From Desulfobacterales bacterium (GTDB lineage Bacteria > Desulfobacterota > Desulfobacteria > Desulfobacterales > Desulfosalsimonadaceae), in the NCBI GenBank assembly GCA_034520365.1, contig JAXHNP010000006.1, positions 675,001 to 739,000 of the forward strand: a stretch of 64,000 bases of DNA, read 5' to 3'. Positions 6,917 through 40,831 of this stretch are shown one piece after another. Below the pieces are notes generated by a model. That model ran no database searches. It was not told the DNA's origin and saw nothing but the letters and a program-made list of their open reading frames with translations. The translations under genes and the position numbers were made by a program. Positions within the stretch are counted from its first letter, which is position 1. Every line of letters begins with the position of its first letter.

Positions 6917-6938
6917 ATACCCGACCGAAAAGGCGTTT

Positions 6939-15236: not shown

Positions 15237-15543
15237 TGCGGTGTGAATTGGGTGTCATGAATTGGGTGTCAAACCTTGAATTGTGAATTAAAAGTTCACG
15301 GTTCGTGGTTTAGGGTTCAAGGTTCATGGTTCGGAACTATGGCCATGTAGCGGAAGGCTTCAGCCTTTCAGGTGTAGGGTTCGTAATTAAGCACCAAAAA
15401 GAAAAAAGCACCAAATCTCAAATTACAAATTACAAACAAGAACCAAATTGCAATGACCAAAATTTCAAACAAACGGCGGCTTGAGATAAGCGCAGTTGTC
15501 ATGTTTTCTGGTTGACCTTGAGCAATATCACTGAGGTGAAAAA
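15237..15543. repeat. Composite intercassette repeat block (first occurrence)
   Basis: No gene. Contains the core GGGTGTCAAACCTTGAATT... at 15264-15291, a short GTTCACGGTTCGTGG heptamer-like tract, then the AT-rich GCACCAAA/CAAATTACAAAC tract (15388-15470) and the CGGCGGCTTGAGATAAGCGCAGTTGTCAT segment found before several other cassettes. It marks the left edge of the accessory island. Confidence 0.8.
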
Positions 15544-18379: not shown

Positions 18380-19039
18380 GGAAGACTCGGGCGAACAACA
18401 GGATCCAGGATTCAGGCTGATACAAAAAACTGGCCAAATCTAGTGCATTGAGCGGCTTGGTTTCTCGGTTGTTTCGGCGGTTCAAGGTTTACAGTTCAGG
18501 GTTCACAGTTCACAGTTCACGGTTTGCAATTAAGCACCAAAAATAATTAAGCACCAAATCTCAAATTCCAAATTACAAACAATGGCCAAAAAACAATGAC
18601 CAAAATTTCAAACAAACGGCGGCCTGAGATAAGTGCACTTGTCATTTCGGGCGGGAGCGGGCAATGTTTTATTAAAGATCCCTCGTCGCTGTCGCTCCTC
18701 GGGATGACAGGGGGTAGGGGCTTTCGCTCTTAGGGATGACAGTGAAGGGTGTCAAACCTTGAATTGTGAATTAAAAAAGGGAAGTTCAGAGTTCACAGTT
18801 CACAGTTCAGGGTTCAGGGTTCACGGTTCAGTCGAAGCACCAAACAGGAAAAAGCACCAAAAAGAAAAAAGCACCAAATAACAAAACACAAATTTCAAAC
18901 AAGCACCAAAAATGAAAAGCACCAAATAACAAATCACAAATAATAAACAAGCACCCAAATCAGAAGCATCCGATAACAAAAAATAATCAATCAAATCTCA
19001 ATGACCAAAATTTCAAACAAGGGCAGCGGAAGGGTTTTG
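18380..19039. repeat. Composite repeat block with CTGTCATT hairpin element and core
   Basis: 660 bases without a gene. Contains a heptamer GTTCA array (18480-18525), an AT-rich GCACCAAA tract (18535-18615), a hairpin element (18640-18710) ending GGGATGACAG, the core GGGTGTCAAACC... at 18747-18774, a longer GTTCAgr array (18783-18830) and a second AT-rich tract to about 19020. The first 330 bases recur at 26856-27190. Confidence 0.8.
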
Positions 19040-19079
19040 TTCCGAAAAAGTTAAAACTATTTCGGAATATTGGTCCGAA
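19040..19079 (+). promoter_or_regulatory. Overlapping inverted repeats upstream of a DUF4143 ATPase (possible operator)
   Basis: TTCCGAAA (19040-19047), TTTCGGAA (19060-19067) and TCCGAA (19074-19079) form two overlapping inverted pairs immediately before the ATPase start. Such spacing fits a dimeric repressor site or a small hairpin. No known regulator is assigned. Confidence 0.35.
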
Positions 19080-19102
19080 ATCGTTTGGCGAAAAAGGTGT
19101 GT

Positions 19103-20392
19103 ATGTTTAAAGACAGGCTTGTATATCCGGAACTGGAAAAACAGAAAGACAATCAAAAGATTACGGTTCTGGTGGGCGCAAGGCAAGTGGGCAAGACGAC
19201 CCTGATGCACCGGCTGTATGAGTCGTTTGCTAAAAAACACCCCTGCCTGTTTTTGGATCTGGATATCTATTCCAATTATGAGCGTGTCAGCTCTTACGAA
19301 AACTGTATTAACACGCTCAAATTGAATGGGTACCAGGGGACAGGCGATGAGTTGTTTATCCTTTTTCTGGATGAGTTTCAACGATATGCGGACATCAGCC
19401 GGGTGTTGAAAAATCTCAGCGACCATCATCCGGATATCAAGATTTATGCATCCGGCTCCTCTTCACTGGCCATAAATGAACAGATCCAGGAAAGCCTGGC
19501 CGGCCGAAAACGGGTTCTGCGGATATATCCGTTAAATTTCAGGGAGTATCTGCATTTTATCGAGCGGCCTGACTTGATCCAAAAACTTGACAATTTGTCA
19601 AATATTCAATCCGACCGGCTTTTTGAGCTCATCCCGGAAGCTTTCCAGGAACTGGAGCGCTTCATGATTTATGGCGGCTATCCGGAAGTAGCACTGGTGC
19701 CGGACAATGAAAAACAGGCGGTGCTGGCCTCGATCTTTGATCTCTATGTCAAAAAAGATCTGGTGGATTTTTTGAAGATTGAACGAATTCAGCATGCCAG
19801 GACACTGATTCGACAGCTTGCGGTCAATCATGGCCAGCAGGCCCGTTTCAGTCAGTTGTCCCAAGTGGCCGGTATTGATGATAAGACAACGAAAAACTAT
19901 ATCGAAATCCTCAAGGAGACATTTCTGATCACGGTTCATACCCCCTGGTTTACCAACCGGAACAAGGAATTGGTCAAAATGCCCAAGATATATTTTTTAG
20001 ACAGCGGGGTTCGGAATTTTTTTGTCAATAATTTCAATGCCGGTGATGTCCGGTCGGATATGCCGTATATTTTTGAAGGGTTTGTGATTTCCGAATTGAT
20101 CAAATCAGGGGTCGCATCCGAAAATATTAAATTCTGGCGCACGAAAAACAAGCAGGAAGTCGATATGGTATTAGATGACGGCAGTGTGATCACGCCTGTT
20201 GAAATAAAATACAAAAAACGACTCAAGCCATCAGACTACAACGGGCTTTACCGGTTCAGGCAGGCCTATCCCGAATGCGGGACGCCTTTCATGGTGAATC
20301 CGGCGAGCAACCGGCCGGCGGAAAGCGGCGTGCTGCGGGTATCTCCTTTTGAGTTGAACCGGGTGAGAAGGGTGTCAAACCTTGAATTGTGA
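19103..20392 (+). CDS. AAA-type ATPase with DUF4143 C-terminal domain (1)
   Basis: 429 residues from ATG 19103, preceded by AAGGTG; an in-frame TTG at 19070 is less likely. GARQVGKTT is the Walker A motif and LFILFLDEFQR is Walker B, followed by a sensor-like IYASGSSSLAIN. The C-terminal half (FLDSGVRNFF, FEGFVISELIK, WRTKNKQEVDMVL, TPVEIKYKK) is the DUF4143 region with a PD-(D/E)xK-like pattern. Such proteins are common accessory-island genes of unknown role. The last residues, RVSNLEL, are encoded by the dispersed core repeat; the same tail ends the second DUF4143 gene at 33459. Confidence 0.88.
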   Translation: MFKDRLVYPELEKQKDNQKITVLVGARQVGKTTLMHRLYESFAKKHPCLFLDLDIYSNYERVSSYENCINTLKLNGYQGTGDELFILFLDEFQRYADISRVLKNLSDHHPDIKIYASGSSSLAINEQIQESLAGRKRVLRIYPLNFREYLHFIERPDLIQKLDNLSNIQSDRLFELIPEAFQELERFMIYGGYPEVALVPDNEKQAVLASIFDLYVKKDLVDFLKIERIQHARTLIRQLAVNHGQQARFSQLSQVAGIDDKTTKNYIEILKETFLITVHTPWFTNRNKELVKMPKIYFLDSGVRNFFVNNFNAGDVRSDMPYIFEGFVISELIKSGVASENIKFWRTKNKQEVDMVLDDGSVITPVEIKYKKRLKPSDYNGLYRFRQAYPECGTPFMVNPASNRPAESGVLRVSPFELNRVRRVSNLEL

Positions 20393-20751
20393 ATTAAAAA
20401 AGGGAAGTTCAGAGTTCACGGTTCACAGTTCAAGGTTCACGGTTCACAGTTCACAGTTCACGGTTCAGGGTTCAGGGGTCGCAGTTCGCTGTTCACAGTT
20501 TACGGTTCAAATTATGAGCAAGCACCAAAAAAATAGAAGCACCAAATAACAAATCACAAAATGCAAACAAACATCAAATCTCAAAAACTGAAATTCAAAA
20601 CAAATCCCATGTGCTTGCGCCTGCCGTTTCGAAAGGCATTATAGGCGGGCCTTTTTGCGTTGATTCGCTTTTAATATTTGACATCATTTCGGTGAGTGAT
20701 ATACATATATATATATCATATATTAGGTCTGCTGGTAAGAGAGGTTAGGAA
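20393..20751. repeat. Composite repeat block ahead of VapBC
   Basis: The core begins at 20370 inside the preceding gene and ends about 20397. It is followed by a ~110-bp GTTCACR array (20406-20512) and an AT-rich tract (20515-20600). Bases 20698-20726 are an alternating TATA-rich near-palindrome (ATATACATATATATATATCAT) just before the VapB-like gene, a possible autoregulatory operator. Confidence 0.7.
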
Positions 20752-21364: not shown

Positions 21365-21903
21365 CTTTGGAAGGGTTCAGGGTTCAGTCGAAGCACCAAA
21401 CAGGAAAAAGCACCAAATAACAAATCACAAATTACAAACAAGCACCAAATCTCAATGACCAAAATTTCAAACAAGCGGCGGCCTGAGATAAGCGCACTTG
21501 TTATTGTCGAGCGGGAGCGAGAAATTTTTACATGAAAGATCCCTCGTCGCTGGCGCTCCTCGGGATGACAGTATGTGAAGGGTGTCAAACCTTGAATTGT
21601 GAATTAAAAAAGAAGAGTTCACGGTTCAGGGTTCACAGTTCACAGTTCACGGTTCAGGGTTAAATTCCAAATCTCAAATCACAAATTACAAACAAGCACC
21701 AAGCAGAATTAAGCACCAAATAACAAAACATAAATTTCAAACAAGCACCAAATCTCAATGACCAAAATTTCAAACAAACGGCGGCCTGAGATAAGCGCAG
21801 TTGTCATTTATCGAAGCGTGCCGGCATGCCGGCGGGGGTAAATCTGTTGGCCTCGCCGTTATGTTTTCTGGTTGACCTTGAGCAATATCACTGAGGTGAA
21901 AAA
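21365..21903. repeat. Composite repeat block ahead of the intact HigA copy
   Basis: Holds an AT-rich tract (21388-21475), a CTGTCATT-type hairpin element (21500-21571), the core at 21580-21607, a GTTCAgr array (21616-21660), a second AT-rich tract (21663-21780) and the leader ATGTTTTCTGGTTGACC... shared with HigA copy 1. No coding gene seen. Confidence 0.78.
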
Positions 21904-22245
21904 ATGGAAGAATACACGGTGAAAAGGCCGTTAAAAAGGCCGCCAACCCATCCGGGGGAAATTCTGCGGGAAGATGTATTGATAAATCTTGGGTTATCGG
22001 TAAGCGAAGCAGCACGAAAACTCGGGGTTTCCCGACAGCAGTTGCATCGCATCTTAGCCTGCACGCATCCGATTTCAATAGAAATGGCTCTTCGAATCGG
22101 CAAATTCGTTGGAAACGGACCTGGCATATGGTTACGTATGCAGCAGGCGCATGATCTTTGGCAAGCTGAGCAACGAATGAGGGATCAGTTATCAAAAATT
22201 GAACCGGCTACATCTGATTATTGCAACAATCAAGATTGTCTATGA
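21904..22245 (+). CDS. HigA/VapI-type antitoxin, intact copy
   Basis: 113 residues. PPTHPGEILREDVLINLGLSVSEAARKLGVSRQQLHRI is the XRE helix-turn-helix of HigA-type antidotes, followed by the conserved MALRIGKFVGNGPGIWLRMQQAHDLWQAE. GAGGTGAAAAA precedes the ATG. In standard higBA operons the toxin lies upstream; here the upstream is only repeat DNA, and a headless HigB remnant follows instead. Confidence 0.9.
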   Translation: MEEYTVKRPLKRPPTHPGEILREDVLINLGLSVSEAARKLGVSRQQLHRILACTHPISIEMALRIGKFVGNGPGIWLRMQQAHDLWQAEQRMRDQLSKIEPATSDYCNNQDCL

Positions 22246-22437: not shown

Positions 22438-23062
22438 GGGTGTCAAACCTTGAATTGTGAATTAAAGAAGGGAAGTTCAGAGTTCAGGGTTCACAGTTCA
22501 CAGTTCAGGGTTCAGGGCTCGGTCGAAGCACCAAAAAGAAAAAAGCACCAAAAAGAAAAAAGCACCAAATCTCAAATTACAAATTACAAACAAGAACCAA
22601 GCAGAATTAAGCACCAAATAACAAAACACAAATTTCAAACAAGCACCAAATCTCAATGACCAAAATTTCAAACAAACGGCGGCCTGAGATAAGCGCAGTT
22701 GTTATTATCGAGCGGGAACGAGAAATTTTTACATGAAAGATCCCTCGTCGCTGGCGCTCCTCGGGATGACAGGGTGGAGGTTGGCGCTGCTCGGGATGAC
22801 AAGGGATGGGAATTGTGCTCCTCGGGATGACAGGGGGGCTGGCGCTCCTTGGGATGACGGGGGGAGGTGCTAAAGTTAAAGATATTGAGCAACAAATAAT
22901 AAATTCCAAAAAACAAACCAATCCCGATGACCAAAATTCGGAAATCCCCCTCCCTGCCTTTTCTGCCTGCAATTGACTTTGCATGGAAACCTATTTAAAA
23001 TATAGAAAATGATGTTGATGCCATAGATGTGGATTTTCGATTATCCGATGCGAGGAAGGGCT
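22438..23062. repeat. Composite repeat block with multiple hairpin-arm copies
   Basis: Core at 22438-22465, GTTCAgr array (22476-22530), AT-rich tract (22528-22680), a full CTGTCATT-type hairpin element (22700-22772) and three further copies of its right arm (CTCCTCGGGATGACAG-like) at about 22782-22800, 22817-22832 and 22840-22859. The end (22940-23062) duplicates the leader of UPF0175 copy 1. Confidence 0.75.
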
Positions 23063-23348: not shown

Positions 23349-23640
23349 TACATGATAGAGTGGCATGAAAGTTCCTAACTGTAAAAATGCTGAGGTTCCA
23401 GAGAGTGCATATTCCGGATGATTTCGGCCACCAATTCCGATTCATCTCGGCCACCAATTCCGGATGATTCCGGCCAGTGATTCCGATTGATGTCGGCCAC
23501 CGATTCCGACGGAAGTCGGCCGGTGATTCCGATCCATTTCGGCCACCCATCACAAGTAATTTTTTGAGCAAAGCTTCGCTGGTGAACAAAAATTATTAGC
23601 GGTAAGTTGTGCCTCTTTTAATCATTCAAAGGAGGTGCAA

Positions 23641-25181
23641 ATGCCAGCGGAGCGAATCACCATGCGAAAAATCAAAGAAGTTTTACGTCTCAAATTCGAA
23701 TGCAGACTCAGTAACCGAAAGATTGCCAACAGTACTTCCATCGCCCGGAGCACGGTAGGCGATTATATCCAGCGGGTCAAGGCTGCGGGCCTTGGCTGGC
23801 CGCTTCCGGAGGATATGGATGATGCGCAATTAGAAAAGATCCTGTTTGACCAGGTGCCCTGCACGTCCAAGGATCACCGGCCGCCTTTAAATTTCTCCTA
23901 TGTCCACCAGGAGCTCAAACGCAAGGGCGTGACCCTCATGCTGTTATGGCATGAATATAAAGCCCAAAACCCCCAAGGCTATCAATACAGCCAGTTCTGT
24001 CATCTCTATCGCCAATGGCGCGATAAACTGGACCCGGTCATGCGCCAGGACCACCGGGCAGGAGAAAAGCTCTTTGTCGACTACAGCGGCATGACCGTGC
24101 CGATTACCGATTCCGGCAGCGGCACCACCTCCGAGGCCCAGATCTTTATCGCCTGTATGGGGGCTTCCAATTACACCTACGCCGAAGCAAGCTTGAGTCA
24201 AAACCTGTCGGACTGGATTGATTCCCATGTCCGGGTATTTGAATTTTTAGGCGGTGTGCCGGAGCTGGTCATCCCCGATAATCTCAAAAGCGGTGTGAAC
24301 AAGGCCTGTCGATATGAGCCGGATCTAAACCCCACGTATCTGGATATGGCCAATCATTATGACACCGCTGTTATCCCGGCCCGGGTCCGGGCACCAAGGA
24401 TAAAGCCAAGGCTGAGGTCAGCGTCCAGATTGTGGAACGCTGGATTTTGGCCAGGCTTCGCAACCGGACGTTCTTCAGTGTCACCGAGTTAAACCGGGCG
24501 ATCGATGAGCTTTTGGTTGAGCTAAACAACAAGTCCTTCCAGAAACTGCCGGGAACCCGAAAAAGCGTGTTTGAGTCCATGGACAAGCCGGCTTTAAAAC
24601 CGCTGCCCATGGCACGGTATCAGTTTGCCCAATGGAAAAAAGCCCGGGTGCATGTTGATTATCATGTGGAAGTCGACGGCCATTATTACAGTGTGCCTTA
24701 CCAGCTTATGAAAAAGCAGCTCGACGTCAGGATAACCGCCAATACCGTGGAATGCTTTTATAAGGGCAAAAGGGTGGCCAGTCATGCCTCAAGCGACCGG
24801 ATGGGCCGGCATACCACGCTCAAGGAACATATGCCCAAAAAGCACCAGCAATATGCGGAATGGACGCCTGAGCGCCTGGTGCGCTGGGCTGGTAAAATCG
24901 GCCCCCATACGGCTGAGTTGATCGAAAAAGTGATGGCTGTTCGTATCCATCCTCAGCAGGGCTTTCGCAGCTGTCTGGGCATTCTTCGGCTGGGCAAAAG
25001 CTATGGGGAGGAGCGGCTTGAAGCCGCTGCCTGTCGGGCCAATCAAATCGGCGGCAAAAGCTATAAAAGCGTGGAGTCCATCCTGAAGAACGGGCTGGAT
25101 CGCAAGCCCCTGGCCGAGGAAGAGTCTTCGGGGAAGCCGATTGACCACGCCAACATCAGGGGCGGGAAATATTACGAGTAA
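23641..25181 (+). pseudogene. istA: IS21 transposase IstA, broken by a frameshift
   Basis: GGAGG precedes ATG 23641. The N-terminus has a helix-turn-helix (NRKIANSTSIARSTVGDYIQ) and FVDYSGMTVPI begins the DDE catalytic core; DNLKSGV and the following region carry the other acidic residues. The frame is lost near 24394 (...RVRAP), where GCACCAAGG lacks one C. It resumes as [16 protein letters not shown] to 25181, including the typical beta-barrel end. A single-base deletion has probably inactivated the element, unless it is a sequencing error. Confidence 0.88.
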
Positions 25182-25410
25182 AAGGTATGGATCTGATCTT
25201 AATTGGGGGCGCTGCCCCCAAACCCCCGGGGTTAACGCATTATGGACCAAAGTATGAGAGATGGGCCGCACGCAGGGTACGGCCCTCATACTTCGGTCAC
25301 CCTGGCCGGCGCTCGGGTCGCTCCCCAGCGTTGCCCTATCCTCCGGCAAAGGCGGATATCAATATAGCCTATTCATTAAACTTTGAAAAGATAAAAAAGG
25401 AAAATATATC
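25182..25410. other. GC-rich hairpin segment between istA and istB
   Basis: Two strong inverted repeats: TTGGGGGC (25203-25210) with GCCCCCAA (25214-25221), and ACCAAAGTATGAG (25246-25258) with CTCATACTTCGGT (25285-25297), the latter with an inner GGGCCG/CGGCCC. IS21 istA and istB genes are usually adjacent or overlapping, so a ~230-bp spacer with hairpins is unusual. It may be a small nested insertion. Confidence 0.5.
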
Positions 25411-26142
25411 ATGTTGACCCATCCGATTATGGACAAATTACAGGCAATGAAGTTCTACGGCATGCGAAAGGCATTTGAAGAGCAACTGCAGACGGCTGAT
25501 ATCGAAAAGTTCTCCTTTGAAGAACGCTTGGGTCTGCTTGTGGATCGAGAACATACAGAAAGGCAGGATAGACAGCTAAAGACCCGGCTGAAAAAAGCCA
25601 AGCTGCGGCATCAGACCAGTATGGAGGACATAGATTATACCTATCCCCGGGGGCTGGATAAGCAGTTCATATTATCGCTTGCCGCCTGCGAATGGTTAAA
25701 AGCCCGTCACAATGTATTTATCACCGGGCCGACCGGGATCGGAAAATCGTATTTGGCCTGCGCACTTGCCCACAAGGCCTGTCTGGAAGGATATAGTGCG
25801 TTGTATCTGCGGGTGCCGAAATTGTTCTCCGAGCTGAGTCTGGCCAAAGGCGACGGCCGTTACGGCAAACTTTTGGCCGGCTTCGCCAAAACGCACTTAT
25901 TAATCCTCGATGACTGGGGCTTATCAAACCTTACCAAGGAGCAGCAGCGGGATTTTCTTGAAATCATAGAGGATCGCTGTGAGATCCACTCAACAGTAAT
26001 CACCAGCCAGCTGCCGGTATCGCATTGGCACGAGGTCATCGATGATCCGACCCTGGCCGATGCCATCCTCGACCGCCTGGTTCACAATGCATACAAAATC
26101 AATCTGAAAGGAGACTCTATGCGGAAGAAAAAAGAAAGTTGA
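25411..26142 (+). CDS. istB: IS21 helper ATPase IstB
   Basis: 243 residues, intact. GPTGIGKS is Walker A and LLILDDWG is Walker B; ITSQLPVSHWHE and LDRLVHNAYKINLKG are the standard IstB/DnaC-like sensor and C-terminal motifs. IstB binds target DNA and activates IstA for transposition. The start MLTHPIMDKLQAMKF is the usual one. Confidence 0.95.
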   Translation: MLTHPIMDKLQAMKFYGMRKAFEEQLQTADIEKFSFEERLGLLVDREHTERQDRQLKTRLKKAKLRHQTSMEDIDYTYPRGLDKQFILSLAACEWLKARHNVFITGPTGIGKSYLACALAHKACLEGYSALYLRVPKLFSELSLAKGDGRYGKLLAGFAKTHLLILDDWGLSNLTKEQQRDFLEIIEDRCEIHSTVITSQLPVSHWHEVIDDPTLADAILDRLVHNAYKINLKGDSMRKKKES

Positions 26143-26855: not shown

Positions 26856-27757
26856 GGAAGACTCGGGCGAACAACAGGATCCAGGATTCAGGCTGATACA
26901 AAAAACTGGCCAAATCCTAGTGCATTGAGCGGCTTGGTTTCTCGGTTGTTTCGGCGGTTCAAGGTTTACAGTTCAGGGTTCACAGTTCACAGTTCACGGT
27001 TTGCAATTAAGCACCAAAAATAATTAAGCACCAAATCTCAAATTCCAAATTACAAACAATGACCAAAAAACAATGACCAAAATTTCAAACAAACGGCGGC
27101 CTGAGATAAGTGCACTTGTCATTTCGGGCGGGAGCGGGCAATGTTTTATTAAAGATCCCTCGTCGCTGTCGCTCCTCGGGATGACAGGGGGTAGGGGCTT
27201 TCGCTCTTAGGGATGACAGGGGGAGGGGCTGGCGCTCCTCGGGATGACAGGTGACAGGTGAAGGGTGTCAAACCTTGAATTGTGAATTAAAGAAGAAAAG
27301 TTCACAGTTCAGAGTTCACGGTTCATAGTTCAGGGTTCATAGTTCAGGGTTCAGGGTTCGGAGTGCAGGGTTCAGTCGAAGCACCAAAAAGAAAAAAGCA
27401 CCAAATCTCAAATTACAAATTTCAAACAAGCACCAAAAATAATTAAGCACCAAATTACAAAACACAAATTTCAAACAAGCACCAAATCTCAATGATCAAA
27501 ATTTCAAACGAATGGCGGCCTGAAATAAGCGCAGTTGTTATTATCGAGCGGGAACGAGAAATTTTTACATGAAAGATCCCTCGTCGCTGGCGCTCCTCGG
27601 GATGACAGGGGGTAGGGGCTTGCGCTCCTCGGGATGACAGGGTAAAGGGGCGGGGGCACGCAGAACCCGTTCCGCACCCCGAAAATTAATATCTTATTGA
27701 TAATATTTCATGATTTGGGTTGTTGGCGAAAAAAGCTATGGTGAATGGTGAATAGGT
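26856..27757. repeat. Long composite repeat block (900 bp) ahead of an AlbA_2 gene
   Basis: No gene. Bases 26856-27190 repeat 18380-18710. It then has a hairpin element (27119-27190) with an extra arm, the core at 27263-27290, a long GTTCAgr array (27299-27375), an AT-rich tract (27380-27510), and a second hairpin element (27537-27609). The last ~100 bases (TTAATATCTTATTGATAATATTTCATG) may hold the promoter of the next gene, but hexamers are not convincing. Confidence 0.75.
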
Positions 27758-29122
27758 GTGATGACAAGTACTTTATCCCTAATAAAGAAGGGTGAATCCG
27801 AACGGCTTGAGTTTAAAACCGCCTTTGGCAAAGAGGTGATTGAAACCTTATCCGCCTTTGCAAATTCAAACGGAGGCACTGTTCTTATCGGTGTTGGGGA
27901 TAAAGGAAAGATTGCGGGCGTTCAGGCCGGGCAGGAAAGCGTTCAGCAATGGATAAACCAAATAAAAAATTCGACCAGCCCTTCCATTATTCCGGATACA
28001 GAAATTATCTCCCATCAAAACAAGACAATCGTTGCGCTTTCGGTTATTTCCTACCCCATCAAGCCCATAAGTTTTAAAGGAAAATACTATAAGCGGGTTC
28101 ATAATTCCAATCATTTGATGGATCTCAATGAAATCGCCAACGAGCACTTAAAAACGATGAATCTCAGCTGGGATTTTGCGCCGGATATCGGCCATAGTAT
28201 TGGCGACATTTCGCTCGACAAGGTGAATCATTTCATTGATATGTGCAATCACTTCAGAGATTATCCTATCTCAGATGATCCCCTGACGGTCTTAAAGAAG
28301 TTTGAACTCATTCGGGAAAATACAATCACGTTTGGTTGTTTTCTGCTTTTCTGCAAGAAACCGTCATTGACAACCACCATTGATGCCGGGCGCTTCGATT
28401 CTGAAGTTATTATCAGAGACAGTGAAACCATTCGGGACGACCTTTTTTCGGAAGTCGATGCAGCCATGAATTTTGTGCGTAAACACATCAGCAAAAGAAT
28501 GGTTATATCCGGCAAAGCCCAGAGGGATGAGGTTTGGGAATATCCGCTTGAAGCCGTGAGGGAAATTGTCATCAATATGATAGTTCATCGTGATTACCGG
28601 GCCAGTGCGGATTCAACAATCAAGATATTCGGGGACAGGATCGAGTTTTTTAACCCGGGCGGCCTTCCCCCGGGCATTCGCATGGAAGATATTATCTCCG
28701 GAAAAATTGCCTCCAATCCGAGAAATAAACAAATTGCTTCGATTTTTAAGGAGGCCGGAATTATTGAAAAGTATGGGTCGGGTATTAAGCGGGTTCGGCA
28801 GACAATGAAAAGGGCTGGGGCGCGTGAGCCATTGTTTGAAGGGTTGGCTGACTGTTTCAAGGTTACTTTGTATCCTATTGATGGTTCCGGAAGTGGCGGA
28901 GTAAATGGCGGAGTAAGTGGCGGAGTAAGTGGCGGAGTAACGGAAGTGTTGAACTTTATATATAACAACCCAGGTAACAATACCAGGCAGATACAGGATC
29001 AATTGGGTGTTACAAGAAGAACTCTTGAGCGCCTTTTGAAAACGCTCAGGGATCAGGGGAAAATAGAGTTTCGCGGGGCGCCTAAAAGTGGGGGGTATTA
29101 TGTGAAGGGTGTCAAACCTTGA
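27758..29122 (+). CDS. AlbA_2 (Schlafen AAA_4) domain transcriptional regulator-like protein with ATPase-like and winged-helix domains
   Basis: 454 residues. N-terminal GESERLEFKTAFGKEVIETLSAFANSNGGTVLIGVGDKG is the AlbA_2 putative DNA-binding domain. The middle LEAVREIVINMIVHRDY...FFNPGGLPPG...GSGIKRVRQTMKRAG is the HATPase-like C-domain of this family. A Gly-Gly-Val repeated linker (GGVNGGVSGGVSGGV) precedes a winged helix (NTRQIQDQLGVTRRTLERLLKTL). The protein ends ...YVKGVKP, where GKGVKP comes from the dispersed core sequence. Often called RecG-like. Role in this island is unknown. Confidence 0.88.
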   Translation: MMTSTLSLIKKGESERLEFKTAFGKEVIETLSAFANSNGGTVLIGVGDKGKIAGVQAGQESVQQWINQIKNSTSPSIIPDTEIISHQNKTIVALSVISYPIKPISFKGKYYKRVHNSNHLMDLNEIANEHLKTMNLSWDFAPDIGHSIGDISLDKVNHFIDMCNHFRDYPISDDPLTVLKKFELIRENTITFGCFLLFCKKPSLTTTIDAGRFDSEVIIRDSETIRDDLFSEVDAAMNFVRKHISKRMVISGKAQRDEVWEYPLEAVREIVINMIVHRDYRASADSTIKIFGDRIEFFNPGGLPPGIRMEDIISGKIASNPRNKQIASIFKEAGIIEKYGSGIKRVRQTMKRAGAREPLFEGLADCFKVTLYPIDGSGSGGVNGGVSGGVSGGVTEVLNFIYNNPGNNTRQIQDQLGVTRRTLERLLKTLRDQGKIEFRGAPKSGGYYVKGVKP

Positions 29123-29402
29123 ATTGTGAATTAAAGAAGAAAAGTTCAGGGTTCAGGGTTCACAGTTCAGAGTTCAGGGTTCACAGTTCAGAGTTCAGGG
29201 TTCACGGTTCACAGTTCACAGTTCGGGGATCAGGGTTCAGTCGAAGCACCAAAAAGAAAAAAGCACCAAATAACAAATTACAAATTACAAACAAGCACCA
29301 AAAACAATTAAGCACCAAATAACAAAACACAAATTTCAAACAAGCACCAAATCAAAAGCGCCAAATCACAAACAATAACCAAACCGCCATTTAAAAATCA
29401 CG
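29123..29402. repeat. Composite repeat block ahead of BrnTA
   Basis: The core starts at 29107, inside the end of the preceding gene. A ~100-bp array of GTTCAGG/GTTCACA units (29146-29240) and an AT-rich GCACCAAA tract (29248-29390) follow. The apparent short reading frame MNCELKKKSS... is produced by the repeats and is not believed. Confidence 0.8.
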
Positions 29403-29998: not shown

Positions 29999-30375
29999 TT
30001 TTAGCAGCATGAAGGGTGTCAAACCTTGAATTGTGAATTAAAAAAGAAAAGTTCGCGGTTCAGAGTTCAGGGTTCAGGGTTCAGGGGATCGGGGTTCAGG
30101 GTTCAGTCGAAGCACCAAAAAGAAAAAAGCACCAAATCTCAAATTACAAATTACAAACAAGCACCAAAAATAATTAAGCACCAAATTACAAAACACAAAT
30201 TTCAAACAAGCACCAAATCTCAATGACCAAAATTTCAAACAACAAGGGCGGCCGCCGAAGGGGTTTTGTTTTGAAAATTGGTGCTTGGAATTTGGGATTT
30301 GTTTGTCATTTGGTGGTTGGGATTTGAGATTTAATCAAATCCGTCTGAGGATTAAAGCAGCAGAAGGAAAAATTG
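29999..30375. repeat. Composite repeat block with inverted AT-rich arms
   Basis: Core at 30014-30041, GTTCAgr array (30050-30105), AT-rich tract (30112-30240), then the same vocabulary in reverse complement (TTGGTGCTTGGAATTTGGGATTTGTTTG, 30278-30330), making a long imperfect inverted repeat. It contains no gene. Confidence 0.78.
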
Positions 30376-30761: not shown

Positions 30762-31199
30762 GGTGCACAGTTCACAGTTCAGGGTTCACAGTTCAGGGTT
30801 CAGGGTTCGGCTGAAGCACCAAAAAGAAAAAAGCACCAAATAGCAAATTACAAATTACAAACAATAACCCAAATCAGAAGCACCAAATCACAAACAACAA
30901 TCAAATCTCAATGACCAAAATTTCAAACAATTCCATATAGGGCGTTTCTGTTATTTATCGAGCGGGGGCGAGAAATCTTGTTACATGAAAGATCCATGAA
31001 AGATCCCTCGTAGCTGGCGCTCCTCGGGATGACAGGGGTAGGGTGTGAAGGGTGTCAAACCTTGAATTGTGAATTAAAAAAGAGAAAAGTTCAGGGTTCA
31101 CGGTTCACAGTTCACAGTTCACGGTTTCGTTTGATGAGTGGGCCGGTATTCGGTATAAAGTTTTAAATACAATATGGATTTAATGTAATCGGTGAAGAA
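30762..31199. repeat. Composite repeat block ahead of the second MNT/HEPN pair
   Basis: GTTCAgr array (30767-30810), AT-rich tract (30815-30940), a hairpin element (30950-31033), the core (31050-31077) and a second short array (31088-31125). Bases 31126-31199 are unique and probably hold the promoter of the next operon. Confidence 0.75.
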
Positions 31200-31897: not shown

Positions 31898-32277
31898 TGC
31901 GGAGTGGGGCCGGGCGGTGGGGCGGTGTCAAACCTTGAATTGTGAATTAAAGAAGAAAAGTTTAGGGTTCAGGGTTTACAGTTCAGAGTTCACGGTTCAC
32001 AGTTCACAGTTCACAGTTCAGGGTTCAGTCGAAGCACCAAGAGAATTAAGCACCAAATTGCAAATCACAAATTACAAACAAGGACTCAAATCAGAAGCAC
32101 CAAATCACAAACAATAATTAAATCTCCACCGCCTCGGTCCGGGGAATAAGGCAGCAGAAGTAAAAATTGATGAAGATAGAAGAAATAAAAGGCCAGGGCA
32201 GAAAGAAAAGGATGAGATTTTTTATGTATATTGTAAAAAAGATTGACTTTTTACATAAATGCTTTTAGTTTTTCGTT
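31898..32277. repeat. Composite repeat block plus MNT-gene fragment and inverted repeat
   Basis: Core at 31922-31949, GTTCAgr array (31962-32028), AT-rich tract (32033-32130). Bases 32151-32190 copy the leader and first codons of the MNT gene at 30376 (GCAGCAGAAG...TTGATGAAGATAGAAG...). TTTATGTA (32221-32228) and TACATAAA (32252-32259) form an inverted repeat before the next gene, a possible operator. Confidence 0.7.
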
Positions 32278-33459
32278 ATGATTCCCCGTGATTCCGAGAA
32301 AATCATCCACGCGCAGTTGCACGGCTTTCCGATCGTTACAATCACCGGGCCCAGGCAAGCGGGAAAAACGACGCTGGCACGCGCCGTATTTCCCCACAAA
32401 CCTTATTTCTCGCTTGAAGATCCCGATATCCGGCAATTGGTTGTTGAAGATCCCAGGGCTTTTCTAAGCCGCATGCCTGATGGCGCGGTGTTAGATGAGG
32501 TTCAGCGGGTCCCTGAAATGCTTTCCTATTTGCAGACCCATGTTGACAAAGACGGACGAACGGGTCTTTTTTTAATTACAGGTTCCCAACAGTTCGGCTT
32601 GATGGCCGGGATTACGCAGTCATTGGCAGGGCGGACTGCATTTATTGAGCTGCTTCCTTTTTCGGTCGGGGAATTAGAGGCGGCGGGAATTCGGCCGGCC
32701 GAGCTTGACCATATGCTTTTTACCGGTGGATATCCACCGTTGTATGATCGGCCGTTATCACCACGTTTCTGGCTGCCGGCTTATGTTACAGCTTATGTAG
32801 AACGCGATGTCCGGCAGCTCCTTAATGTCCAGGACCTGGACGCATTTCAGCGGTTTCTGAGGTTGTGTGCGGGACGGAGCGGGCAAATTTTGAATCTTTC
32901 ATCATTGGCGGCGGATTGCGGTATTACCCATAACACGGCGAAATCATGGATTTCGGTGCTGGAGGCCAGTTATATCCTGTTTCAGTTGCGCCCCCATCAT
33001 GCCAATTTTCGTAAGCGGTTGGTCAAATCGCCAAAACTATATTTTTATGACACCGGGTTGCTGTGTTGGCTTTTGGGCATTCAGGAGGCGCAACAGCTTG
33101 CCACCCACCCATTGCGCGGCAGTATATTTGAAACGTTTATCGTCTCCGAATTGATGAAAATCCGATTTAACCGGATGGAAAATGTGGGTTTTTATTTCTG
33201 GCGGGACAGCAACGGCAACGAGATTGACGTCATCGCCGATTATGGCGGCAAACTGATGCCGATTGAAATTAAGGCGGGTCAGACTCTTAATCGGGATTTT
33301 TTTTCCGGGCTTGAAAAATGGATGGCGTTAGCCGGTAATCAATCGATTGCGCCTGCGCTTATTTACGGTGGCTCCGAAAAAATGGAGCATAAGGGCGTCA
33401 AGGTATTTAATTGGGAGGCGGTGGGGGAGGTTTTGAGGGTGTCAAACCTTGAATTGTGA
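32278..33459 (+). CDS. AAA-type ATPase with DUF4143 C-terminal domain (2)
   Basis: 393 residues. GPRQAGKTT is Walker A and GAVLDEVQRVPE is Walker B. ITGSQQFGLM, FTGGYPPLYD, YVTAYVERDVRQL, FYDTGLLCWLLG, FETFIVSELMK and NEIDVIADYGGKLMPIEIKAG are the usual order of motifs in DUF4143 ATPases, the last a PD-(D/E)xK-like block. It is a different branch from the ATPase at 19103. It also ends RVSNLEL from the dispersed core, whose other side is the RAYT gene. Confidence 0.9.
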   Translation: MIPRDSEKIIHAQLHGFPIVTITGPRQAGKTTLARAVFPHKPYFSLEDPDIRQLVVEDPRAFLSRMPDGAVLDEVQRVPEMLSYLQTHVDKDGRTGLFLITGSQQFGLMAGITQSLAGRTAFIELLPFSVGELEAAGIRPAELDHMLFTGGYPPLYDRPLSPRFWLPAYVTAYVERDVRQLLNVQDLDAFQRFLRLCAGRSGQILNLSSLAADCGITHNTAKSWISVLEASYILFQLRPHHANFRKRLVKSPKLYFYDTGLLCWLLGIQEAQQLATHPLRGSIFETFIVSELMKIRFNRMENVGFYFWRDSNGNEIDVIADYGGKLMPIEIKAGQTLNRDFFSGLEKWMALAGNQSIAPALIYGGSEKMEHKGVKVFNWEAVGEVLRVSNLEL

Positions 33460-34472
33460 ATTAAGCTGTGCCAGCCATGATTGAAGCTGCTCGCTTTGGT
33501 TAATCTGTTTTTTGATTGATGCTACATTGTGGCTTACAGCAGAGTAGGTCATGGCAAACCGGTTTCCGAGTTCCGCATTGGTCATCAGCCCGGTGTTCCA
33601 CATCAAGTAAAGCAATAAATCCCGTTTCTGTTTGTCCTCACCCCGCAGCCGTCCGGCTTGAACGCATTTTTCCATATCCAGGCCAAGGGTCGCGGCGGCT
33701 TTTTCAATCTGATCCCCGCTGTTCATATCCTTTGCCAGTTTTTTCTGCTGAGGGATTTCAATTTCCGGTGTTTCCGGCAGAAACCGGTTTCGGATATTTT
33801 CCGCAAACTGCTCAGACCCTAAAATAAATCCGTGGCGAAGATCCTCCATCAGCTGCTTTTCCTCGTTGGCATAATCCTGGACTTTAAGCCGGTATCCGGC
33901 GTGCGGGTCGCTGCTGTCGAAAGCGGAAAGGATCTTTTCCGTGCGCAGCCAGTCCGGCCCCTTTTTTCCGTAAGCATATACCGGATAGCTGCTCCATGGA
34001 TAGTCGATAAGCCGGTTGACAAGGCCGGCTCTTAAGGGATTGCGGTGAATGTAGCAGGACAGTCCGATGAAATAGGATTCGTCTTCGACCAGAATACTTT
34101 TATAACGGCCTTGAAAAAGGTGGCCCTGTTTGCTATTGCGATTATTAAATCGCCGGGTGTAGGTGGTGCCGAGCCATTGCATGGCAGTTTTCAGGTTGGC
34201 GTGACGGGTTCTGGCCATAAGGTGGTAATGGTTGGGCATAAACACATAGGCAAGAATATCGATTTCGAAACGTTCCGCAAATTCGGCAACCGTATTTGAA
34301 AACAAATGCCGGTCTTTTTCAGACATGAAGATTTCCTGTCCGGCATTGCCCCGGGACAGCAAATGATAGATTGCGCCCGGATATTCAATTCGCCATGCTC
34401 TTCCCATAATATGCATATAGAGATAGGACTTAACCATGTCAAGGATAATTCACAATTCAAGGTTTGACACCC
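33437..34472 (-). mobile_element. RAYT element with inverted core repeats at both ends
   Basis: The core GGGTGTCAAACCTTGAATT... lies at 33437-33464 in forward orientation and at 34446-34472 in reverse orientation, so a ~27-bp inverted repeat brackets a single RAYT gene. The right copy matches the left over its full length (GGGTGTC...GAATTA). The outer GGGTGTC ends face the neighbouring genes. I see no clear target-site duplication (flanks TTGA / TTGT). Confidence 0.75.
33442..34407 (-). CDS. REP-associated tyrosine transposase (RAYT, Y1/HUH family)
   Basis: About 321 residues. The likely start is the internal Met MGRAWRIEYPGAIYHLLSRG, the usual family start; an in-frame upstream ATG at 34437 gives 10 more. 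FMPNHYHLM carries the HUH metal-binding pair, and CYIHRNPLRAG contains the catalytic Tyr. The C-terminus (KRDLLLYLMWNTGLMTNAELGNRFAMTYSAVSHNVASIKKQ) is a DnaA-C-like helix-turn-helix of one RAYT subgroup. RAYTs nick and move REP-type hairpin sequences. The last residues (LNSQFKV) are encoded by the core repeat itself. Confidence 0.93.
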   Translation of the reverse strand: MGRAWRIEYPGAIYHLLSRGNAGQEIFMSEKDRHLFSNTVAEFAERFEIDILAYVFMPNHYHLMARTRHANLKTAMQWLGTTYTRRFNNRNSKQGHLFQGRYKSILVEDESYFIGLSCYIHRNPLRAGLVNRLIDYPWSSYPVYAYGKKGPDWLRTEKILSAFDSSDPHAGYRLKVQDYANEEKQLMEDLRHGFILGSEQFAENIRNRFLPETPEIEIPQQKKLAKDMNSGDQIEKAAATLGLDMEKCVQAGRLRGEDKQKRDLLLYLMWNTGLMTNAELGNRFAMTYSAVSHNVASIKKQINQSEQLQSWLAQLNSQFKV

Positions 34473-36049
34473 TTGTCACCCTTGTTTTGCTGGTGGTGGT
34501 GGTGGCGTTGTCGGGGTGTGCGGCGCTGCAGGGCAATGGGTTGATAATCGCGGCAGGTGAGGGCGATGCCGCAGAGGCGCAAGCGGCGTTGGAGAAAAGC
34601 GTTGATGTGAACAGGGTGGATAAGGAGCAGCGGTTCGCCCTGCTGGAGGCTGCTTCAAACGGGCATCCGGAGGTTGTAGAGCTTTTGGTGGAAAACGGGG
34701 CGGATGTTGATTTGTCGAATCGCTCCGGCATGACGGCGCTGATGGCGGCGGCTTCGAGTGGCCATGAATCGATTGTTCGCTATTTGATTGCGCAGGATGC
34801 GGATGTGTCGCTCAAAAACCAGCGGGGGTTTACCGCCCTTCACTTTGCTTTGGATCAGGGCGATATCAATGTGATTGAGGCCCTGGTGGAAAAGGGGGCG
34901 CCGGTTAATGTCAGCGGGAAAAAGGAAGTCCCCCCATTATTTCTGGCGGTTGAGCGGGCCAATAAAGCCGCTGCCGAACTCCTTATCGAAAACGGGGCCG
35001 AGTTGGATGCAAAAAATCCCGACGGCAACACCCCGCTGCATGCGGCGGCAAAAAAAGCGAGCCCTGAATTGGTTCAATTGCTGCTCGATGCGGGGGCGCC
35101 GGTTTCCGCAAAAAATGATAATGGGGCGGATGCGCTTTTGGTTGCTGCCGGTTCAAATTACTTTACGATTGTCGAAAACCTGTACAAGCGTGTTGCCGAT
35201 TCGGTCGACGGAGATTTCGCTCAATATCAGGCAGATGCAGATGAGGATGGCGCCGGGCAGCGGTATAACCTGTATGACATCCTGCAGGCATTGGAGGGCA
35301 TCCGGCCGGGCTACAGCAGTGACACCGATATAAAAGAGTTCCACCACGCGCTTGCGAACAGCCCCCTTACCCTTGTTGTTTCAGAGGAAACCTTTCAATC
35401 CGTGATTGCCGGGCTGCGCAAGGATTACCTCGAGACGGCCACGCTGCTGCTGGAAGCCGGGCTGCCTGTAAATACATCGGATAGAAGAGGCGAGACTGTT
35501 CTGATGAAGCTCTGCAAGCAGAAAGACTGTGTGGCTGCGGAGTTTGAGAAAAAATCCATTCAACTGGCCCCGGATGTAGCCGCCCGGCTAAATTCAGCCT
35601 GCGAGAATGCGGGAATAATCCACGCCGAACTCATGGTATTGTTTATTAAAAAAGGGGCGGATGTGGCGGCCCGGGATGAAAATGAGCAGACCGCCTTGAT
35701 GTACGCATGTGAGAATGAAAATTTTCAATATGCGAAGTTTTTGATCCGGCACGGGGCGGATGTGAACAAAGCCAATTATGAGGGATGGACCCCGCTGATC
35801 TATGCCGCTGCCAATGAAGATTTTGAAATGGTTAAGCTTTTGCTTGATGCGGGGGCGGCGGTGAATGCCGCTAATTCATTCGGCGAGACCGCGTTGTTGA
35901 AGGTGGCGCATCGGAATAATCCGAAGATTGCGGAGCTGCTGGTCAAAAACGGGGCGGATCCGGATATTGAAAATTCGCACAGCAATTCGCCGAGGAGTAT
36001 CGCCAGGGAGTATGGGTATTCCGAGATTTTGGAGATATTTCGGAGATGA
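34436..36049 (+). CDS. Ankyrin-repeat lipoprotein
   Basis: 537 residues. The signal peptide ends in the lipobox ALSGC (cysteine about residue 28). Roughly ten ankyrin repeats follow (for example NGHPEVVELLVENGADVDLSNRSGMTALMAAASSGHESIVRYLI), with one interruption at about residues 255-330. The start codon overlaps head-to-head with the longer RAYT start, and the n-region of the signal peptide ([12 protein letters not shown]) is encoded by the core repeat. So either the gene was captured by the insertion or the native start was replaced. Probably a periplasmic protein-interaction scaffold; partner unknown. Confidence 0.85.
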   Translation: MSRIIHNSRFDTLVTLVLLVVVVALSGCAALQGNGLIIAAGEGDAAEAQAALEKSVDVNRVDKEQRFALLEAASNGHPEVVELLVENGADVDLSNRSGMTALMAAASSGHESIVRYLIAQDADVSLKNQRGFTALHFALDQGDINVIEALVEKGAPVNVSGKKEVPPLFLAVERANKAAAELLIENGAELDAKNPDGNTPLHAAAKKASPELVQLLLDAGAPVSAKNDNGADALLVAAGSNYFTIVENLYKRVADSVDGDFAQYQADADEDGAGQRYNLYDILQALEGIRPGYSSDTDIKEFHHALANSPLTLVVSEETFQSVIAGLRKDYLETATLLLEAGLPVNTSDRRGETVLMKLCKQKDCVAAEFEKKSIQLAPDVAARLNSACENAGIIHAELMVLFIKKGADVAARDENEQTALMYACENENFQYAKFLIRHGADVNKANYEGWTPLIYAAANEDFEMVKLLLDAGAAVNAANSFGETALLKVAHRNNPKIAELLVKNGADPDIENSHSNSPRSIAREYGYSEILEIFRR

Positions 36050-36368: not shown

Positions 36369-37310
36369 ATGAAACTAATCGTCCAGATTCCCTGTTTTAA
36401 TGAGGAAAAGACGCTGCCGCAGACGGTGAGGGATATCCCGCGCAATATCGAGGGGATTGATTCGGTAGAGATTCTGATTATCGATGACGGCAGCACGGAC
36501 CGGACCGTGACGGTTGCCAGGGAGCTGGGGGTTGACCACATCGTTCAGAACTGCGGCAACAAGGGATTGGCCATGACTTTTACGAATGGTCTGAATGCCT
36601 GCCTGACGCTGGGGGCGGATATCATCGTTAATACGGATGGCGACAATCAGTACCAGGGGGCGGGTATCGCCAGGCTGGTGCAGCCGGTGTTAAGGGGTGA
36701 GGCCGATATTGTGGTGGGCGACCGCAAGACAGACAGTATTGAGCATTTCGGATTTGTCAAAAAAAAGCTTCAGAAAATCGGCAGCATGGTGGTGCGGCTG
36801 CTTTCCGGAACCACGGTGCCGGATGCGGTCAGCGGGTTCCGGGCGTTTTCAAGGGATGCGGCCATGCAGATAAACGTGGTCTCCGCCTATTCCTATACGG
36901 TGGAGACCATTATCCAGGCGGGCAACAAGAAGCTGCGCATTGCCAGTGTACCGGTGGGCACCAATCCCAAAACCCGGGACTCCCGGCTGATGAAAAGCAT
37001 CCCCCGCTTTATTGCCCAGCAGATTTCCACCATGGTCCGGATGTATACCATGTTCAAGCCGCTGCGGACCTTTTTTATTATCGGCATGATCTGTATTATT
37101 GGCGCGCTGATTCCATCCGTGCGGTTTTTGATTTATTACCTGGCCGGTGAGGGCGGCGGGCATATTCAGTCCCTGATTCTTGCGGCCATTCTGTTTCTGG
37201 TCGGCTTTCAGGTGATTATCGTCGGGCTTCTGGGGGATGTGATTTCATTTAACCGCAAACTGATTGAAGAGATACTTTTGCGGATACGGCGCATGGAGAT
37301 GGATGAGTAG
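36369..37310 (+). CDS. Family 2 glycosyltransferase with C-terminal membrane helices (dolichyl/polyprenyl-phosphate mannosyltransferase-like)
   Basis: 313 residues. IPCFNEEKTLPQTVRDIP, ILIIDDGSTDRT and VNTDGDNQYQG (DxD-like) form the GT-A core; FRAFSRDAAMQINVVSAYSYTVETIIQAG is the usual acceptor region. Two strong hydrophobic segments at about residues 232-252 and 268-295 anchor it in the inner membrane, the layout of polyprenyl-phosphate glycosyltransferases. The stop TAG abuts the core repeat at 37310. The substrate is not determined. Confidence 0.87.
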   Translation: MKLIVQIPCFNEEKTLPQTVRDIPRNIEGIDSVEILIIDDGSTDRTVTVARELGVDHIVQNCGNKGLAMTFTNGLNACLTLGADIIVNTDGDNQYQGAGIARLVQPVLRGEADIVVGDRKTDSIEHFGFVKKKLQKIGSMVVRLLSGTTVPDAVSGFRAFSRDAAMQINVVSAYSYTVETIIQAGNKKLRIASVPVGTNPKTRDSRLMKSIPRFIAQQISTMVRMYTMFKPLRTFFIIGMICIIGALIPSVRFLIYYLAGEGGGHIQSLILAAILFLVGFQVIIVGLLGDVISFNRKLIEEILLRIRRMEMDE

Positions 37311-37592
37311 GGTGTCAAACCTTGAATTGTGAATTAAAAAGAAAAAGTTCACAGTTCAGGGTTCACAGTTCACAGTTCACGGTTCGTAAATAAAAAATCC
37401 CAAATTACAAAATACAAATTACAAACAAGGACCAAGGGATTAAGCACCAAATTACAAATCCCAAATTACAAACAAATAACAAATTTCAATGACCAAAATT
37501 TCAAACAAGGACAAGCTCGGCTGAAGGGGGGTGTTTGATATTTGGTGCTTGGGATTTGGAATTTATTTCAATTACGCGGCCTTTAAAATCCT
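37311..37592. repeat. Composite repeat block with inverted AT-rich end
   Basis: Core at 37310-37337, short GTTCAgr array (37347-37385), AT-rich tract (37388-37505) and a reversed tail TTTGATATTTGGTGCTTGGGATTTGGAATTT (37534-37566), so the tract can fold on itself. No gene. Confidence 0.78.
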
Positions 37593-39512: not shown

Positions 39513-39899
39513 ATCAAAGCCTTGTGATGGTAAAATTTTTTTAACGCGGTAAACCCCACGTTTCGCACGATTGGTCGGCACGGTGGCCGACCCTACAATA
39601 GGGCAGGCGCGGCGGCAGACCCTTCACATGGGCGGTCGGCACGGTGGCCGACCCTACAGCAGGGCAGGCGCGGCGGCAGACCCTTCTGTAGGGCAGGCCA
39701 CCGTGCCTGCCTGAAAAATAGAACAAATTTACCGTGTGGGGGAACACATAACCGCTGAAAACGCTTTTTCTGCAATTCTGATTTGTTATGTCATTGGATG
39801 GTCTTTTTGTCAAGTTTTTAGGGGGGGGGGCGGGTGTCAAACCTTGAATTGTGAATAAAAAGGTTTAGGGTCCACGGTCCATCGAAGTTCCGAATTATA
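39513..39899. repeat. GGTCGGCACGGTGGCC palindrome copies and a core repeat
   Basis: Bases 39570-39735 hold two copies of the GTCGGCACGGTGGCCGACCCTACA palindrome and a third variant (GTAGGGCAGGCCACCGTGCCTGCC), ending in AGAACAAATTTACCGTGT, which matches the ends of the element at 44458. A run of ten G precedes a core at 39832-39858. No gene. Confidence 0.75.
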
Positions 39900-40513: not shown

Positions 40514-40831
40514 TTCAATTGCCCTTCCTTATGATACTCAATGTGTTAAAATACGCTGATTTTTTTCAGCGCCTTGATCGTGATCGTGGTATTGTATGCA
40601 TTAAAGTATAACCGTAAGTATGAATTTTGTCAAGGCCGGGTATCAAACCTTGAATATTAAATTGCGGAACAGCGCCCCGGCTGGTATGATAATTCCGGAA
40701 GGTCGTGCCGGTATTGCCTGATGTCGTTAATTTGAGCTTTTTCCCCCTCATTTTGGCCTTCTCGCAGAGGGAAAAGGAAGTAAGCGGATGTTTGAGTTTG
40801 CCGCAGATATGCGAAGGAAGTTGATTTAACA
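40514..40831. repeat. Intergenic region with a degenerate core repeat
   Basis: At 40638-40663 TATCAAACCTTGAATATTAAATTG looks like a decayed core. GCCGCAGATATGCGAAGGAAGT (40800-40822) resembles, in reverse complement, a segment at about 62590-62620. No gene is supported. Confidence 0.55.

Follow-up and report, generated by a model that had tools for sequence, protein, structure and literature searches.

A probable TIRtron with a Y1/HUH transposase gene and its dispersed end repeats in a Desulfobacterales bacterium

TIRYTs, encoded in TIRtrons, were named by Di Nocera, De Gregorio and Rocco in 2013 as RAYT-like genes with long inverted repeats. According to the main text of that paper (PMC3733652), the motif GGGGWSAS occurs in some, not all, of the terminal inverted repeats (TIRs), and single, paired and grouped copies of the ends are present in some genomes. 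Most TIRYTs described so far, 20 of 26, fall into subclass 2.1 of the TnpA_Y1 classification by Quentin et al. 2018 (PMC6006769), the second largest TnpA_Y1 subclass (14.9% of strains), whose members have a Y1 core and a C-terminal helix-turn-helix (HTH) related to Bac_DnaA_C, with no GTAG REP nearby. TIRYTs are not mentioned in PMC3686654. The stretch described here, called the window, comprises 64,000 nucleotides of a Desulfobacterales bacterium (assembly GCA_034520365.1, contig JAXHNP010000006.1, positions 675,001 to 739,000) and contains a RAYT-like gene bracketed by an inverted repeat. This feature is a TIRYT in a TIRtron and not a RAYT of the GTAG-REP type; its kind is already known.

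The feature is very probably a TIRtron of about 1,036 bp with ends GGGTGTC...GACACCC, encoding a single Y1/HUH TIRYT that acts on its cognate ends. Cores at 33437-33455 (plus strand) and 34454-34472 (minus strand) bracket the gene as an inverted repeat. An earlier reading, made from the sequence only, had put the length of this flanking repeat at about 27 bp; the two copies are identical at 28 of 28 bases (AGGGTGTCAAACCTTGAATTGTGAATTA). As in described TIRtrons, a Y1/HUH gene lies between long TIRs, and single and dimeric ends occur in the genome (34 copies, five pairs). The element differs from them in its foot, GGTGTCAA, which departs from GGGGWSAS at one position (GGTGTCA instead of the GGGGTCA that most relatives have), in the clustering of the family on one island, and in the heptamer arrays that accompany many copies. 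The element has the following parts.

33437-33463, plus strand: TIR-L, left terminal inverted repeat, GGGTGTCAAACCTTGAATTGTGAATTA (sequence match)
33442-34437, minus strand: TIRYT gene, Y1/HUH transposase, stop codon inside TIR-L (PF01797, NF047646, alignment, profile matches, fold)
34446-34472, minus strand: TIR-R, right terminal inverted repeat, same sequence as TIR-L (sequence match)
34414-34442, minus strand: promoter-like TTGACA-N17-TATATG just inside TIR-R, directed into the TIRYT gene (read from the sequence)
34468-34485, minus strand: short end-stutter (defined below) at TIR-R, a tandem pair of ACAAGGGTG, each unit with 5 nt of flank and 4 nt of TIR

Alignment places the start codon common to the homologues at ATG 34407, which gives a protein of 321 aa. 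It carries the Y1 transposase domain PF01797 (E 2.7e-12) with intact catalytic motifs (HUH motif NHYH, Y motif YIHRNP) and scores 78 bits with the NCBI model NF047646 (REP_Tyr_transpos), just below the cut-off of 80. A profile for remote matches, built from 25 of the 38 relatives first chosen, matches six DnaA sequences at profile positions 187-319 (E 3.3e-8 to 2.1e-4) and TnpArep 4er8 (E 0.009). The predicted structure (mean predicted local distance difference test score 84, predicted template modelling score 0.57) matches the same TnpArep fold with E 5.4e-8 and box-bound DnaA domain IV (1j1v) with E 0.009, a template modelling (TM) score of 0.85 by target length and a root-mean-square deviation of 1.9. 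The Pfam model Bac_DnaA_C alone was matched by two relatives only, below its cut-off, and left the window protein unmatched. On the basis of the DnaA profile matches and the predicted fold, the protein appears to combine a Y1 nuclease with a C-terminal DnaA-domain-IV-like HTH domain, the architecture of subclass 2.1 (best DnaA E 3.3e-8; 1j1v TM 0.85). Domain, alignment, profile and fold all support the earlier naming of the gene as a RAYT of the Y1/HUH type. At the right end of the element, the first codons (ATG 34436 onward) of an ankyrin-repeat lipoprotein-like open reading frame, 34436-36049, apparently come from the element itself, so that its insertion may have re-started this frame.

The element has Y1/HUH chemistry, generally one gene per repeat type, and paired inverted repeats in common with the RAYT/TnpA_REP systems of GTAG REPs, REPINs and BIMEs. 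It differs from these by being without a GTAG tag, by a lone repeat copy that is not a stable hairpin, by the extra DnaA-like domain and by IS-like defined ends. Paired ends would form a 26-bp stem with a folding energy of -27.5 kcal/mol, a lone copy only -1.1 kcal/mol. With this value and an inverted terminus of about 27 bp, the proposal that the cognate repeat is not a classical REP stands. A classical REP hairpin was rejected as a candidate since the repeats carry GGTGTCA and the lone end hardly folds; the 1 kb around the gene was not scanned for GTAG hairpins.

Members of the IS200/IS605 family share the Y1/HUH chemistry and produce no target-site duplication, as is also seen for the relatives described below; they have sub-terminal hairpins instead of perfect inverted termini and are without the extra DNA-binding domain. 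The attC sites of integron cassette arrays have the consensus GTTRRRY/RYYYAAC, which GTTTGAC/GTCAAAC of the present repeat does not fit.

With up to 3 mismatches allowed, the window contains the 19-nt core 15 times (0.01 expected), 13 of these matches being exact. Besides the bracketing pair, 13 cores lie between 15264 and 40656, all on the plus strand, in agreement with the number given from the sequence at the outset. They are listed here with one end-stutter.

15244-15271, plus strand: end-stutter, TGAATTGGGTGTCA twice (7 nt of flank plus 7 nt of TIR)
15264-15290, plus strand: TIR copy, then short heptamer array
18747-18773, plus strand: TIR copy, then heptamer array
20370-20396, plus strand: TIR copy giving the stop codon of the DUF4143 gene 19070-20392
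21580-21606, plus strand: TIR copy, then heptamer array
22438-22464, plus strand: TIR copy, then heptamer array
27263-27289, plus strand: TIR copy, then heptamer array
29107-29133, plus strand: TIR copy giving the stop codon of the gene 27758-29122
30014-30040, plus strand: TIR copy, then heptamer array
31050-31076, plus strand: TIR copy, then heptamer array
31923-31949, plus strand: TIR copy (first base C), then heptamer array
37310-37336, plus strand: TIR copy, then heptamer array
39832-39858, plus strand: TIR copy, one mismatch in 26
40638-40656, plus strand: degenerate core, 2 mismatches in 19

The claim that GGGTGTC always faces the adjacent cassette needs correction outside the window, where the GGTGTC end can face a gene start as well as a gene end (C6:657471). 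The cores adjoin many unrelated cassette genes. Stop codons of the RAYT gene and of the genes ending at 20392, 29122 and 33459 fall within the repeat. The repeat offers stop codons in two frames, and genes ending inside it, two of which are DUF4143 ATPases, finish with RVSNLEL-stop or VKGVKP-stop.

Genome-wide, the 26-nt core has 34 copies at up to 3 mismatches, and the backward-read control has none. The region C6:630014-714858 holds 32 of them, both bracketing copies counted in; the outlying two are at C3:372370 and C7:127829. Ten copies form five tight inverted pairs, palindromes of about 60 bp that are empty inside, outside the window at C6:630-657 kb; two of the five have mismatches in one arm. 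One genome copy carries GGGGTCAA.

Most relatives examined have cognate inverted ends of the GGGGTCA type. Among the 23 RAYT loci first examined, 16 have an inverted repeat with an alignment score of at least 30 (no shuffles were used). A larger set of 80 loci was fetched from named genomes, and 22 were dropped because they were incomplete or close to a contig end. Of the 58 loci analysed, 51 have an inverted repeat from end to end whose score exceeds the shuffled maximum by more than 4; after removal of the seven below this threshold and of two without the motif, 49 were kept, with at least five of their ends starting at a wrong GTC. Ten pairs of related elements at different loci were inspected, seven of which could be scored at both ends (72-91% identical). 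In L002/L053 (G000/G003, 91.5% identical) the common sequence stops exactly at GGGGTC and GACCCC. It ends within one base of the foot in L097/L111 and L141/L144, and within about three bases in L101/L102 and L098/L110.

Hand-made lists of 69, 65, about 59 and 66 elements with both flanks were tried, and 56 elements were kept for the test of target-site duplication. None above chance was found among these 56 (2 nt in six, 6.7 expected; 3 nt in none; 4 nt in one; 5-9 nt in none). At apparent orthologous gene ends in two genomes of the same genus, the end pair is missing (G001, compared with the palindrome at C6:630014, and G002, compared with that at C6:652928); the intergenic DNA is too diverged at both to yield a base-exact empty site. 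A plasmid search gave 20 records, all below 60% identity, and a viral contig search gave one relative, neither with useful pairs. A scan for interrupted genes as in-silico empty sites (about 59 elements) listed open frames on both sides. Outside the ends of the 56 elements, the symmetry of the flanks summed over 12 positions is above all 2000 permutations. Ten elements have at least 7 of 12 symmetric positions, compared with 2.0 on average, and at least one permutation also reached 10; in some families (L132/L145) the inverted repeat is longer than elsewhere. For these two reasons, insertion into palindromic targets is a lead only.

Repeat and enzyme are also linked across genomes. Six RAYT-like matches are present in this genome, and only the window RAYT has cores within 1 kb. 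With a close enzyme defined by a best E of at most 1e-90 (a cut set for this analysis), the core is present in 10 of the 11 genomes with a close enzyme and in 6 of the 49 without (60 genomes, P 1e-6); the co-occurrence with the RAYT subgroup that had been suggested as a check is thus found. The distances between end sequences correlate with those between enzymes (Mantel r 0.43 for 65 elements, of which one, L173, has a wrong end; 0 of 5000 permutations). A second TIRYT in the genome, at C6:304727 and 38% identical, has another end, GGGGTCAAATCTTTAWTCTTGAYAA, in 11 copies; two copies of this family, about 216 bp long, are apparently internally deleted. Both families cluster near their own enzyme: with copies less than 2 kb apart merged and the enzyme's own ends excluded, 8 of 10 loci of the first family (binomial P 9e-10) and 5 of 5 of the second (P 2e-7) lie within 100 kb. 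The TIRYT is likely the source of the dispersed core family, and this part of the proposal that the RAYT is its autonomous source holds up; that the enzyme built the cassette island is unproven. As a separate observation, an identical segment of 1,146 bp is present at L057 10055-11200 and at C6:350813-351958; one copy begins inside the right arm of a core palindrome, the other beside an end of the second TIR family.

Several points count against a TIRYT acting on its cognate ends. Convincing inverted ends are missing at 7 of the 23 loci first examined, some of which are fragments or near contig ends. Three of the ten pairs of related elements were not scorable at both ends, and G034/G030 and L132/L145 stay alike for 4-8 bases past the GGGG foot. 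Four DNA queries against the genus, and a fifth in the genus of G034, returned only diverged intergenic regions and no empty site exact to the base; of the expectation that sites are defined exactly at GGGTGTC, what remains is that copies in relatives are alike to within a few bases of GGGG. No transposition event was observed. A correlation of end and enzyme distances is also expected if gene and ends are simply inherited together. The second family has a fainter copy at C6:4091, a long way from its enzyme. The sequence-only reading had itself named cores in genomes lacking a RAYT of this type as evidence to the contrary, and such cores do occur: the six genomes without a close enzyme hold 1-5 cores each at a completeness of 79-100%, with ratings of 97% and 100% for two of them. 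More distant RAYT-like matches are present in all six, and in one (G042) a fragment of a related enzyme adjoins the core. These cores would be relics, reflect gaps in incomplete genomes, or be ends of more distant enzymes. Finally, the local clustering could partly stem from segmental duplication and is for that reason not a clean measure of transposition.

This last point leads to the alternative that fares best, to which we give nearly an even chance: the island cores would have spread mainly by segmental duplication or gene conversion of whole spacers (core, heptamers and AAGCACC arrays), the activity of the enzyme being confined to its own element and to simple end pairs. The core-bearing spacers are about 70-93% alike over 150-390 bp, many of these matches begin at the core, several spacers have GTGAAG in common outside it, and a duplication at C6:657.3/658.5 kb brings the core along. 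The core-side arrays, found in this genus only, also speak for it. The palindromic pairs, the C3 and C7 copies and the varied outer flanks suggest independent insertion instead, as do end-stutters with different flanks.

The arrays themselves look peculiar to this genus. An array of period 7 bp lies just inside 16 of 35 ends in this genome and inside 0 of 170 ends elsewhere (0 of 112 at enzyme loci, 0 of 58 from the solo search). A same-genus genome that shows core and array has the foot GGCGTC and was left out of this count for that reason; a further, decayed copy was seen as well. GTTCAC arrays also occur without a core. A 400-kb genome sample holds no GTTCAC arrays and six period-7 arrays of other units, and matches to the array sequence do occur at a few other places in the genome, e.g. 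C6:1172186 and C7:39113. Heptamer arrays were rejected as a part of the element for the family, and the attachment of the repeat to such arrays, as first described, is no property of the element. Absent from ends elsewhere and present without cores, the arrays most probably represent a genus-specific spacer repeat that is linked to the core and lies outside the element. A descent of the array heptamer AGTTCAC from the reverse complement of the end heptad, AATTCAC, is weakly supported (6 of 7 bases agree; 1.9% of all heptamers match equally). Beside these arrays, a solo core at L062 12370 (G000:C3:372370) is followed by a different 7-bp array of GGTCGGT units, and several AAGCACCAAAT arrays in the spacers of 15-41 kb are, like the GTTCAC arrays, 7-bp phased (49-bp units, 7 x 7).

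Two further properties seem to be general among TIRYTs: phased heptads together with the DnaA-like domain, and the end-stutter. In each end the foot is followed by three variable bases and then by two in-phase 7-bp repeats (here TTGAATT GTGAATT). A first set of 49 ends already showed them (z 12.7). For 65 ends, the match at period 7 is 0.58 versus 0.30 (z 15.5), and for 15 representatives with at least 6 differences in 15 positions it amounts to 0.46 versus 0.28 (z 4.8, 0 of 1000). When all periods between 3 and 11 are compared, 5 or 8 comes second, with z up to 1.8. The phased heptads would be plausible binding sites of the DnaA-like domain.

The end-stutter is an extra tandem copy of the local flank and the first bases of the end, ahead of the end (X-GGGGTCA-X-GGGGTCA-). 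It is present at 10-18% of ends, with a flank part of 5-9 bases plus GGGGTCA. Located by pattern, 33 of 205 ends have it as an exact 10-mer and 37 with one mismatch, compared with 9 of 1025 flank positions; with a partner required the count is 39 of 215, and with ends located by inverted repeat 14 of 135 (69 elements). Four elements stutter at both ends, with X differing between them. Offset controls gave 4 of 205 at each of -50, -45 and -30, and 8, 4 and 5 at +15, +26 and +30; offsets of +40 to +100 (8-19) fall inside palindromes and arrays and are not usable. Site controls gave 18 of 673 for non-TIR GGKGTC and 8 of 143 for sites of the same pattern that lack a partner. Judged by eye, almost all sites in both sets (18 and 8) are TIRs missed by the patterns or the partner rule, most of them beside a TIRYT gene. 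The control sites in L061 are about 3 kb from a distant RAYT-like match. The main text of PMC3733652, Figure 9 and supplements apart, mentions neither phased heptads nor end-stutters ('duplication' and 'heptamer' have 0 occurrences each). A wider literature search, which was not aimed at tandem duplication and lay outside preprints and most subscription journals, did not find the end-stutter.

In 32 non-overlapping stutters the extra copy has 6, 7 or 8 end bases in 22 (7 in 12) and 19-28 in 9, and the flank part has 5-9 bases in 28. The inner breakpoint is fixed after GGGGTCA, which suggests that the stutter is a trace of cleavage there. According to PMC8266576, TnpA_REP enzymes cut at CT, and in one case also at CA, dinucleotides on either side of the REP. 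An explanation by replication slippage at hairpin-forming or protein-bound ends, with no enzymatic cleavage and rejoining, is a serious one to which we nevertheless give somewhat less than an even chance. Three or four imperfect copies at some ends, with small spacers between them, would fit slippage, as would the 26-bp stem of paired ends and an outer breakpoint without sequence preference by eye; free slippage is not expected to fix the inner breakpoint at GGGGTCA, nor do the narrow ranges of the end part and the flank part favour it.

Least of all survives the idea of an enzyme that is a mere passenger, a RAYT inserted or gene-converted between pre-existing cores of another system such as an integron-like site: cores beside unrelated cassette genes, stand-alone palindromes and the six genomes with cores and no close enzyme speak for it, and it is nonetheless very improbable, as relatives at unrelated loci and in other phyla have inverted ends close to the gene that are cognate and specific to the enzyme, the sequences of ends and enzymes vary together, and the second enzyme of the genome has an end family of its own.

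For a TIRYT acting on its cognate ends, the following mechanism can be proposed. The DnaA-like domain would bind the two phased 7-bp repeats inside each end, and the Y1 domain would cut single-stranded DNA after the foot GGGGTCA (GGTGTCA here). Solo ends, 60-bp end pairs and copies with internal deletions may be served by the enzyme in trans, for the most part close to its gene. In that case the remaining 32 cores of the genome would be its non-autonomous relics and copies, and the heptamer arrays would be spacer repeats of the genus, copied along after being linked to the core.

Some further observations concern other parts of the window and genome. Within the giant repeat-protein gene at 6653-13555, a segment of about 2.6 kb is tandemly duplicated (82-93% identity). 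A DDE_Tnp_ISAZ013 transposase (PF07592) at 15673-16947 adjoins a truncated copy of a gene that is HigA-like by appearance; an intact HigA-like gene is at 21904-22245. A pair of genes at 23635-26142, of IS21 type by appearance, seems to split a segment of which an uninterrupted copy lies at about 17.3-18.8 kb, and the two segments may give a filled/empty comparison for this apparent IS21-type element. An interspersed repeat of about 200 bp at L061 8620-8819 (G000:C7:128620-128819) has about 40 matches listed in G002 and many in G000.

Tentatively, and with rather more doubt than confidence, TIRYTs can be pictured as a hybrid machine: the DnaA-like module would read the heptads, the Y1 domain would cut after GGGGTCA, rejoining 5-9 bases outside the end would leave a stutter, insertion would make no target duplication and may favour palindromic sites, and local spread of the ends would here seed boundaries of the cassette island. 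In the available text of PMC3733652 and PMC6006769 the DNA recognition of subclass 2.1 is left open. Defined ends, phased heptads as candidate sites of the DnaA-like domain and a breakpoint at GGGGTCA narrow the question of recognition and cutting to a few assays, and the end-stutters could record past activity of these elements in the sequence.

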